In this document: one piece after another, positions 18,585 to 20,493 of the stretch
Layout: every line of letters begins with the position of its first letter
Position numbering within the stretch: the stretch's first letter is position 1
Assembly (NCBI RefSeq): GCF_014641655.1
Contig: NZ_BMID01000001.1
Location: 2,260,427-2,324,426 of the forward strand
Source: Pseudoblastomonas marina
GTDB lineage: Bacteria > Pseudomonadota > Alphaproteobacteria > Sphingomonadales > Sphingomonadaceae
DNA length: 64,000 nucleotides
Direction: 5' to 3'
The notes under the pieces: model-generated
Told to the model about the DNA's origin: nothing
The model's input: the letters and a program-made list of their open reading frames with translations, nothing else
Database searches by the model: none
Program-made: the position numbers and the translations under genes

Positions 18585-19280
18585 TCAGGCGGCTTCGACT
18601 TCGTCCTGCGGATCGCGCAGCACGTAGCCACGGCCCCAGACGGTTTCGATGTAGTTCTCACCGCCGCAGGCGCTCGAGAGCTTCTTGCGCAGCTTGCAGA
18701 TGAAGACGTCGATGATCTTGAGTTCGGGCTCGTCCATCCCGCCATAGAGATGGTTGAGGAACATTTCCTTGGTCAGCGTGGTGCCCTTGCGCAGCGAAAG
18801 CAGCTCGAGCATCGCGTATTCCTTGCCCGTCAGATGGACCCGCGCGCCGTCGACTTCGACCGTCTTGGCATCGAGGTTCACCGCGAGCTTGCCCGTGCGG
18901 ATGATCGACTGGCTGTGGCCCTTCGAACGGCGCACCACGGCATGGATGCGGGCGACCAGCTCGTCCTTGTGGAACGGCTTGGTGACGTAATCGTCAGCGC
19001 CGAAGCCGAAGCTGCGGACCTTCGAATCCATTTCGGCGATGCCCGACAGGATCAGGACCGGCGTCTGCACCTTGGCGACACGCAGTTTCTTGAGCACGTC
19101 GTAGCCGTGCATGTCGGGCAGGTTCAGGTCGAGCAGGATGATGTCGTAATCGTACAGCTTGCCAAGGTCCAAGCCCTCTTCGCCGAGGTCGGTCGAATAG
19201 ACATTGAAGCCTTCGGTGCTGAGCATCAGCTCGATCGCCTTGGCGGTTGTCGGCTCGTCTTCGATAAGCAGTACGCGCAT
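18585..19280 (-). CDS. ctrA: Cell-cycle response regulator CtrA
   Basis: 231 residues. OmpR/PhoB-type regulator: receiver domain 1-120 with acceptor D51 ([15 protein letters not shown]) and conserved Lys in [10 protein letters not shown]; winged-helix DNA-binding domain about 124-223 with [16 protein letters not shown] and VWGRGYVL, the CtrA hallmark. It is the alphaproteobacterial master regulator of division, motility and, in several species, gene transfer agent production. Upstream 19364-19474 is dense in TTAA half sites, consistent with autoregulation. divK and a gene transfer agent cluster lie in the same window. Confidence 0.95.
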
Positions 19281-19590
19281 CTCGTATCCCCTAGCTCCCC
19301 GGTATTCCAACCCTCCGGGCCGCGATCGCGACGGCACCCCCGCCCTCGCATTTCGCGTAGAAGTTAACATGGCCAGTTCTGAACAGAAAAGGTTAATATG
19401 TCCTAAATTCTTAACGCGGCTTAATTTCGCTCCGCGAGCTCAAGGGTTTAACGGTAAATTTCTGGTGACCTTAATTGCCTGTGTTGCGCATACGCCACGT
19501 TCCTTCGCCTTCGCATCGACCAGATTGACCGACCGGGACTTCGCTGCGAAGTTCCTGCCTGCGCCACGAGGAGCGCGAGGGAGCAACGCC
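19281..19590. promoter_or_regulatory. ctrA upstream region with clustered TTAA half-sites
   Basis: No gene is visible here. Unusually AT-rich for this genome, it has TTAA at 19364, 19393, 19411, 19421, 19448 and 19471. TTAA-N7-TAAA occurs at 19393-19407 and TTAA-N6-TTAA at 19411-19424. The known CtrA consensus is TTAA-N7-TTAA, so these are near matches. This is the expected location of the ctrA promoter and of a divergent promoter for the aromatic amino-acid genes. I could not place a -10/-35 with confidence. Confidence 0.45.
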
Positions 19591-19692
19591 ATGACGAATG
19601 ATCGGGATTTTCACCTGACCGCTTCGGACGTGCGGGGCTTCTATTATTTCGGATCGTTTACCTGCCGGTACGCCGACCGGGCGTGCCGGTGA
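19591..19692 (+). CDS. Putative aromatic leader peptide (33 codons) upstream of chorismate mutase
   Basis: ATG preceded by AGGGAG about eight bases upstream. The short product contains VRGFYYFGSF; in all 7 of 33 residues are Phe or Tyr, with four in a row at positions 17-20. It ends 94 bases before the chorismate mutase start. Its 3' end (19665-19674) forms a 10-pair stem with 19680-19689. That stem competes with a CGGGCG/CGCCCG pairing (19678-19683 with 19713-19718) followed by TAATTTT. The layout is that of a Phe/Tyr attenuator leader like enterobacterial pheL. Seen: ORF, ribosome site, aromatic run, hairpins. Inferred: attenuation. Confidence 0.4.
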   Translation: MTNDRDFHLTASDVRGFYYFGSFTCRYADRACR

Positions 19693-19726
19693 TCGACGGA
19701 GCAGCCCAAGGGCGCCCGTAATTTTC
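19665..19726 (+). promoter_or_regulatory. Candidate attenuator hairpins before chorismate mutase gene
   Basis: First hairpin: CCGGTACGCC (19665-19674) with GGCGTGCCGG (19680-19689), loop five bases, one G-T pair. Alternative: CGGGCG (19678-19683) with CGCCCG (19713-19718), six GC pairs, then TAATTTT (19719-19725). The two are mutually exclusive because they share 19680-19683. The U-tract is short, so termination strength is uncertain. Confidence 0.35.
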
Positions 19727-19785
19727 GACATTGCAGGTAAATCCCGCGCGACGATCGCTCGCGCCGCATCCGAAAGACCAATTCC

Positions 19786-20493
19786 ATGTCCCGTCATACC
19801 CAGAATCCGCCCGCGCTCGAGGCCTTGCGCAGCGAGATCGACGCGCTCGACGACCAGATCCTCGCGCTGATCGAACGCCGCGTCGCGGTCGCACGCAAGG
19901 TTGCGCACGCCAAAGATCCCGCACAGTCGGTTGCCCTGGTCCGCCCGGACCGCGAGGAACAGGTGATCGACCGCCTCTCGGCATTGAGCACGATGCCCAA
20001 GGGCAGCCTCGCGACCGTGTGGCGCGAATTGATGGCATTGAGCCTGCAGGCGCAGCGCCGCACCGACATCGTCATCCATGCCCCGACCGATCCGTCCGGC
20101 ACCACCGCCCGCAGCGCCGCGCGATTCGGGGCGGCGGCACCGATCGTCGCGGTCGATAGCGTCGAAGCCGCGCTGGCCCGCGCCCGCGCCGGGTCGGCCG
20201 TCGCGGTGATCGAACTCTCGCGGTCCGATCCGTGGTGGCTGGCACTCGACCGCGACGACGGACTTGCCGTTATCGAGCAGCTCAGGGGCCCGGGCGACAA
20301 GCCCTCGGCGCTCGCGCTGGCACGAGTCTCCGACGTATACTTGGCCCGCGCCCGGCGCTGGGAAGTGCTGGCCGATAGCGAGTTCGAAACGCGGCTTCGG
20401 TATGGCGAAACGCTCTTTCCACTGGCATGTTCGCACGCAAAAGTGCTGTGTATCGTCGAAGATGTCGCGGTGCAGCTGAAAGGAGCGGCGTAA
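19786..20493 (+). CDS. Chorismate mutase (AroQ type) with C-terminal extension
   Basis: 235 residues. The first ~90 residues are an all-helical AroQ chorismate mutase: LRSEIDALDDQILALIERR, HAK and VRPDREEQV place R15, R31, K43, R56, E57 and Q88/Q90 where the E. coli P-protein has its active-site residues. Residues 91-235 form an alpha/beta-looking extension (VIHAP, VAVIELS, SDPWWLAL) that I cannot assign; similar long chorismate mutases are known in alphaproteobacteria. It converts chorismate to prephenate. It is four bases upstream of a prephenate dehydratase-like gene. Confidence 0.82.
   Translation: MSRHTQNPPALEALRSEIDALDDQILALIERRVAVARKVAHAKDPAQSVALVRPDREEQVIDRLSALSTMPKGSLATVWRELMALSLQAQRRTDIVIHAPTDPSGTTARSAARFGAAAPIVAVDSVEAALARARAGSAVAVIELSRSDPWWLALDRDDGLAVIEQLRGPGDKPSALALARVSDVYLARARRWEVLADSEFETRLRYGETLFPLACSHAKVLCIVEDVAVQLKGAA

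Follow-up and report, generated by a model that had tools for sequence, protein, structure and literature searches.

Textbook accounts present amino-acid leaders mostly as attenuators of transcription. In Enterobacteria, pheL, which precedes pheA, acts by way of an intrinsic terminator; the PheA enzyme of Escherichia coli carries an ACT domain. The erm leaders represent translation attenuation, in which drug-stalled ribosomes are sensed, and in the rtpLP leader of the Bacillus anti-TRAP operon a ribosome at the leader stop codon covers the next Shine-Dalgarno (SD) sequence. One survey of attenuators calls the ermC leader atypical in that it controls translation and has no amino acid specificity (PMC2965389). 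For Caulobacter, another study takes a small open reading frame (ORF) before trpS as a leader peptide and describes an ilvBN leader with a Rho-independent terminator (PMC4117421). In Actinobacteria, a run of Leu codons in the LEU element before leuA pairs with the leuA SD box; the authors of that report regarded other attenuator parts as missing and classical attenuation as unlikely, and proposed a binding protein (PMC1262725). Our literature search ran mostly outside subscription papers, the main survey of proteobacterial attenuators being one of these, and within that scope found no Phe/Tyr leader of the group studied here.

We analysed a window (the whole stretch of 64,000 nt from Pseudoblastomonas marina) in which ctrA on the minus strand, starting at 19280, a 310-nt spacer, a leader ORF, a chorismate mutase gene (CM) and a prephenate dehydratase gene (PDT) follow one another from left to right (Table 1). 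To the right, a tryptophan 2,3-dioxygenase-like gene faces toward the CM–PDT pair. The leader shows the features by which amino-acid attenuation leaders are generally recognised, namely a short ORF in which codons for the product amino acid are clustered, its own ribosome-binding site and a position directly before biosynthetic genes. Judged from sequence comparison, this putative Phe/Tyr-sensing leader probably controls translation of the CM and PDT genes. Genera are labelled g1 (the window's genome, G000, and G001), g7, g73, g75 and g20, all in one family, f1.

Table 1 Features of the leader locus and its neighbours (window coordinates)
Feature	Position	Strand	Basis
ctrA, divergent neighbour, not part of the leader	18585..19280	-	NCBIfam CtrA, E 1.8e-127
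SD sequence AGGGAG of the leader ORF	19578..19583	+	Read from sequence; GGAG/AGGAG-like sites before the leader ATG in relatives
Leader peptide ORF, 33 codons, FYYF inside	19591..19692	+	Present in 31 leader genomes, four genera
Sensor codons TTC TAT TAT TTC	19639..19650	+	Read from sequence; aromatic run at the equivalent place in relatives
P1 5' arm TTTCGGAT, candidate anti-SD, overlaps Tyr/Phe codons	19647..19654	+	Duplex search, minimum-energy fold, compensatory changes
P2 5' arm GTTTACCTG	19656..19664	+	Pairing search; kept with partner in G001
P3 conserved hairpin CCGGTACGCC/GGCGTGCCGG	19665..19689 (arms 19665-19674 and 19680-19689)	+	Alignment of leaders
P2 3' arm CAGGTAAAT	19734..19742	+	Pairing search
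P4 hairpin directly 5' of the CM ribosome-binding site	19747..19765 (limits approximate)	+	Minimum-energy fold; similar stem in G001
P1 3' arm ATCCGAAA, ribosome-binding region of CM	19768..19775	+	Duplex search, minimum-energy fold, compensatory changes
Chorismate mutase (CM_2) with C-terminal PDT-like domain, 235 aa	19786..20493	+	Pfam CM_2 E 4.9e-18, structure comparison
Prephenate dehydratase without ACT domain, 181 aa	20498..21043	+	Pfam PDT E 2e-40

Conservation of the leader ORF

The leader ORF encodes MTNDRDFHLTASDVRGFYYFGSFTCRYADRACR, followed by the stop codon. An earlier note on this DNA had proposed a 33-codon ORF with its own AGGGAG site, reading Phe-Tyr-Tyr-Phe plus three more aromatics (7/33 codons) and placed before a CM/PDT-like pair; direct reading, translation and Pfam matches to both proteins agree with it on each count. 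Against a Phe+Tyr background of 0.0554, taken from 39 long non-overlapping ORFs of the window, at least seven Phe/Tyr in 33 codons has a binomial P of 0.0019, which alone is modest, the ORF having been picked; conservation settles the reality of the leader. The earlier note had named absence of the ORF or of its aromatic codons from close relatives as evidence against a leader, and both turned out to be conserved, in 31 genomes.

A strong CM protein match was found in 19/397 family genomes (E ≤ 3.1e-24). Upstream of CM, 18 of the 19 carry an ORF that contains a Tyr/Phe cluster and whose product terminates in SFxGRYA or a close variant; the nineteenth, G129, has a diverged leader without a match to R1, a covariance model built on the leader core. 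Searched against the 397 family genomes, R1 gave 18 matches at E ≤ 3e-13, precisely in these 18, and a next best match at 1.5e-4; the 32 genomes on the weak side of this gap were taken as background. Genus-level searches recovered the leader in 9/10 g7 genomes, all already known from the family search, and in 18/26 g75 genomes, of which 13 were new (weakest E 3.9e-7). The total is 31 leader loci in four genera (E 6e-21 to 4e-7), model E-values being rough and weak relatives possibly missed under the strict filters of the large genome searches. Every one of the loci lies before the same CM and ACT-less PDT, and at some g73 and g75 loci ctrA was not found adjoining. A second model, R2, matched G000 at 2.4e-14 and its next best genome at 2.7e-4 in a class-wide sample of 385 genomes, in which five of those listed belong to the window's family. 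By its conservation, the leader can be taken as a leader-peptide attenuator with as good as certain confidence.

When R1 was run on 39 loci chosen for distant CM homologues or weak R1 matches, eight matches (E 1e-5 to 4e-4) were obtained and judged to be chance because the hairpin is broken or re-spaced in six printed alignments; all eight come from loci fetched by R1 itself. Rfam gave no match on the window at gathering scores; with the threshold relaxed to E ≤ 5, none of its families matched the leader ORF or P3 in 10 loci.

The peptides are 24–45 aa long, with length changes in frame, and hold 2 to 10 aromatics (30 leader genomes read, G430 excluded); the poorest are G429 with two and G422, G426, G428 and G433 with four. 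Both ends are conserved with exceptions (start M-x-K/N-x-Q/R-D, end SFxGRYA), and the middle varies freely. The conserved start, codons 2–6 in many leaders, falls outside the helices described below. The sequence GTTTA is invariant in 27/27 aligned leaders (set A3), and its TTT is a Phe codon that is rare in the long ORFs of the window (66/560 Phe codons); TAT, which many leaders write in the aromatic cluster, accounts for 122/320 Tyr codons there. G430, outside A3, has CTTTA in place of GTTTA. The window carries TCGTTTA at 19654–19660, and the pairing partner of the invariant GTTTA differs between genera.

These sets were delimited as follows. G430 (L153) counts with its leader match and PDT and was excluded from the structure tests and the peptide table, and G129 (L145) is counted apart, though among the 31 sequences of the structure, blocking and terminator tests. 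Alignment A1 leaves out rows L027, L032, L033 and L034, and A3 leaves out L145, L133, L135, L141 and L153. The G076 leader lies outside the SD filter, yet is included in the peptide listing.

On the window's genome itself, we noted a second chorismate mutase gene (G000:C1:1391619-1391852). TTAA repeats at 19393, 19411 and 19421 (region 19390–19430), between ctrA and the leader, resemble CtrA sites, and the CM promoter might also be a target of CtrA.

Helices of the leader transcript

The arms of P3 are exactly complementary in the window, and across the 27 aligned leaders the two bases make a standard pair in 269/269 cells where neither side is a gap; the share fell to 26–41% when the partner was slid by 1–3 columns, and 4/500 shuffles equalled it. 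Two pairs changed on both sides in the 27 leaders (29/500 shuffles have as many), and in a smaller 15-row set no pair did. The leader stop codon lies within the P3 loop in g7, g73 and 15/17 listed g75 leaders, and just past the P3 3' arm in g1. The C-terminal leader codons coincide with a P3 arm, their third bases being conserved too.

A further helix, P1, joins the sensor codons to the ribosome-binding region of CM. Its leader arm is drawn from the aromatic cluster together with the Gly/Ser codons that follow it, and was seen in three of the four genera, reading UUUCGGAU/AUCCGAAA in the window, UUUCGGCU/AGCCGAAA in G001, UUUCGGUUCG/CGAACCGAAA in eight g7 genomes and UCUCGG/CCGAGA in g73. It spans 8 bp in G000 and G001 and 10–12 bp in 8/9 g7 genomes. 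In 13 genomes the leader arm begins 20 nt 5' of P3, and in 13/13 the 3' arm ends 7–12 nt before the CM ATG, the CM start codons of relatives having been set by hand. The third base of the Gly codon GGN changes together with its partner, giving A-U in G000, C-G in G001 and U-A in g7 (unmatched in g73), and UUC facing GAAAG in g1 and g7 becomes CUC facing GAGAG in g73. Pairing is perfect only in g1 and most of g7, and imperfect in G360 and g73. Six distinct rows pair in 44/48 cells, against a permutation mean of 40.7; 44 is reached by 4/720 permutations, at least two of which must do so since two g73 rows share one leader arm.

Within a single genome, the duplex energy of P1 is only mildly better than that of shuffles: with a 24-nt region 7/200 shuffles equalled the window and 4/200 equalled G001, and with a 45-nt region 17/200 equalled the window. 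A caution on P1 is that Phe/Tyr codons, being rich in pyrimidines, readily pair with SD sites, which are rich in purines. Minimum-energy folds contain P1 in all ten printed g1, g7 and g73 sequences, G360 showing it in shifted form. P2 reads GTTTACCTG/CAGGTAAAC in G001.

When the aromatic codons were blocked in silico (held unpaired), the CM site became 1.7–6.4 kcal/mol cheaper to open in 13/13 g1, g7 and g73 genomes. In the same 13 genomes the outcome of a block at the leader stop codon was mixed (+3.2 to −3.6), and spacer blocks changed little on average. In G400 the most effective single block in the spacer opened the site further than the codon block did (5.2 versus 3.6), and in G272 and G381 such a block did almost as well as the codon block, as did a block at the leader start in G360. 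With shorter flanks and a shuffled-spacer control, the change on codon blocking ran from −8.1 to 0.0, a range that shifts because opening energies depend on the length of sequence folded, and at most 2/40 shuffles were as low in 8/13 genomes.

No consistent effect of codon blocking on the CM site was found in the 17 g75 genomes (mean −0.8 kcal/mol), nor in the shorter-flank test there (mean z −0.38), so a translational mechanism is supported for g1, g7 and g73, not for all carriers. In g75 the codon stretch has another predicted partner, some 50 nt downstream of where P3 begins; the resulting helix, termed X/X', reads TATCAGCTCG/CGAGCTGATA in G392, TTTCGGCTCG/CGAGCTGAAA in G432, TTTAGCTCG/CGAGCTAAA in G252, ATCGGCTCG/CGAGCTGAT in G320, CTTTAGCTCG/TGAGCTGAAG in G428 and GGCTCGTTT/AAACGAGCC in G425. 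At most 10/200 shuffles equalled it in these 6/17 genomes, and the mean z over the 17 is 1.3; several other g75 genomes have a shorter X/X' pairing or none. Direct pairing with the CM site was also considered for g75: a GUCUCAC after P3 can pair with it in G421, G422, G424 and G429, and is not general.

Prephenate dehydratases and aromatic-pathway genes at leader loci

The window PDT is the sole PDT of its genome, and the earlier note was right that it lacks an ACT domain: Pfam matches the PDT domain alone, as it does in 32/32 PDTs at these loci (31 leader loci plus G129), with at most 13 residues beyond the aligned part. Sixty family genomes were searched for PDT (18 with the leader, G129 with its diverged one and 41 without a leader). 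The enzyme is present in 40/41 leader-free genomes, and 28 leader-free PDTs were read, 27 with a full ACT-type tail and one with a short tail. Sixteen have tails of 95–104 residues beyond the PDT part, and 11, at loci that had no match to the window PDT query and were read with another query, align full length to an ACT-bearing PDT with 61–68% identity. The short-tail exception, L093, with 51 residues, comes from G008 (86% complete, 7% contamination). The remaining 12 leader-free PDTs, judged by frame length only, have open frames of at least 300 residues.

Set A5 also includes the PDT of G306 and the additional PDTs found in G272 and G381. The Pfam ACT model passes E ≤ 1e-3 in 8/31 PDTs of this set, and ACT was assigned to the others because of tail length, full-length alignment to an ACT-bearing PDT and a GVNMTKLESY-type motif. 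G306, the only g7 genome without the leader, has a single PDT, whose tail is 104 residues long. The association of the leader with an ACT-less PDT holds in the genomes read, but represents few lineages, not many independent events. Two g7 genomes, G272 and G381, have retained an ACT-type PDT in addition to the leader-linked one. The ACT-less PDTs (alignment A4, including that of the window) keep N-x-T-x-F, but the TRF-motif Arg, which does not vary in A5, is no longer conserved in them.

The C-terminal part of CM (about residues 93–231) is predicted to adopt a PDT-like fold, with Z 9.3 to 2qmw and 3mwb, in an AlphaFold model of mean pLDDT 88.2; Foldseek gave no match at E ≤ 0.001. On this model, a degenerate PDT may be encoded here next to a working one. 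CM may also contain an ACT-like remnant, since the alignments extend to residues 242–295 of the PDT chains.

Gene content differs in g75, where a class-II DAHP synthase (15/17) and/or an EPSP synthase (9/17) lies between CM and PDT. Chorismate synthase follows within the fetched 7 kb at 8/17 loci, all these genes occur together in six, and the fullest order is CM-aroG-aroA-PDT-aroC; identities come from Pfam on the proteins of G425, G428 and G320. Judging from gene order, these aromatic-pathway genes appear to form operons. CM sits in one frame of 576–616 codons running into DAHP synthase at 9/30 loci measured besides the window, all in g75 (L144, L146-L148, L150, L152 and L155-L157), which makes a fusion of CM and class-II DAHP synthase.

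We did not find PDT in the g75 genomes G078, G289, G423, G372, G427, G351, G434 and G153 or in G020 (g20). The eight g75 genomes also lack the leader. Phe auxotrophy or another route is possible in the PDT-less genomes; G434 is only 68% complete.

Proposed mechanism and alternatives

We infer that the leader ORF is translated, that ribosomes stall within it and that P1 gates translation of CM, which is the most likely output in g1, g7 and g73 as far as the sequences indicate. The same nucleotides would carry the Tyr/Phe cluster and pair with the CM ribosome-binding site, closing it, with P2, P3 and P4 folding between the two arms of P1. When Phe- and Tyr-tRNA are charged, the leader ribosome would reach the stop codon at P3 and depart, leaving the codon stretch free, and P1 would then form and CM would be poorly translated. 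When they are short, the ribosome would stall on the codons and mask the 5' arm of P1, so that the CM site would open. The computed support comprises the conserved ORF, its aromatic cluster and P3, the P1 complementarity with its compensatory changes, and the association with an ACT-less PDT.

The earlier note had instead proposed two mutually exclusive pairings, P3 and a second one between CGGGCG (19678–19683) and CGCCCG (19713–19718) followed by TAATTTT, with termination as the output. Such classical transcription attenuation, with an antiterminator and an intrinsic terminator competing before CM as in enterobacterial pheA, would suit the stop codon in the first-stem loop of most relatives, and the window does have the 6-bp second pairing, with a 29-nt loop and overlapping the P3 3' arm, and then TTTT (19722–19725). 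P3 stood up to comparison, being exact and conserved, but an equivalent of the second pairing was looked for by eye in the congener G001 and not found. A strict scan returned an intrinsic terminator in 0/31 loci (30 leader loci plus the diverged G129); a lax scan returned 6/31, three of them P3 itself with a T-rich tail. Runs of at least four T occur in 5/31 loci and in none of the nine g7 genomes, and the window scan gave one terminator-like site, against 1.2 expected from shuffles; it lies inside the leader ORF (19621–19638). Transcription termination is not supported as the output because the second pairing was not seen in G001 and the strict scan found no terminator, and we consider the pheA-type scheme unlikely. 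An equally improbable scheme is Rho attenuation, in which the translated leader would keep Rho off or expose a rut site and the helices would only modulate. It agrees with the strict terminator scan and with the pyrimidine-rich look, by eye, of several g75 loci after P3, but leaves the compensatory changes between the sensor codons and the CM ribosome-binding site unexplained.

That the leader peptide acts as a product in its own right, the aromatic codons being incidental, has a reported precedent in peTrpL of Sinorhizobium (PMC7298713), and both conserved peptide ends could be read in this way. Yet the C-terminal codons are those that coincide with the P3 arm down to their third bases, the middle is free to vary and 18/18 family matches lie directly before CM, which makes this reading improbable to a greater degree than either form of transcriptional control. 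Least credible of all is a chance ORF with a chance hairpin in the ctrA–CM spacer. The reading frame continues open well before the ATG and the P of about 0.002 belongs to a picked ORF, but conservation in 31 genomes of four genera, over the E range given above and also at loci of g73 and g75 without ctrA found alongside, already refutes it.

If translational gating by P1 is correct, the leader represents a compact, conserved translational design without a recognisable terminator, in which the sensor codons double as anti-SD. Its co-occurrence with an enzyme lacking the feedback domain makes the idea that RNA control replaces allostery directly testable. More tentatively, and with somewhat less than even confidence, we suggest that within one family the ACT feedback of PDT was lost and replaced by an RNA device whose codons act as anti-SD, and that a sister genus rewired it to another helix before aro genes; the rewired g75 sensor before CM-aroG-aroA-PDT-aroC would then set the flow through the aromatic pathway.

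Compared with described systems, the leader resembles pheL in placing a Phe-rich peptide before a chorismate mutase/prephenate dehydratase gene, and differs from it in that pheL has an intrinsic terminator, none being found here by the strict scan, and E. coli PheA has ACT. As in the erm leaders, a stalled leader ribosome would free the ribosome-binding site of the next gene; there the stall is caused by a drug, whereas here the codons would sense Phe/Tyr supply and double as anti-SD. Like rtpLP, the leader would be specific for amino acids and control how the following gene is translated, but the SD is covered there by a ribosome and would be covered here by an RNA helix. The closest known system is the LEU element: both have an upstream ORF in which codons for the product amino acid are clustered, and other helices inside, and in both (here in g1, g7 and g73, not in g75 as a whole) the codon run pairs with the SD of the structural gene (PMC1262725). 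The LEU element has leucine codons before leuA in another phylum and contains a pseudoknot, whereas Phe/Tyr codons precede CM here, and the two are likened by design only.
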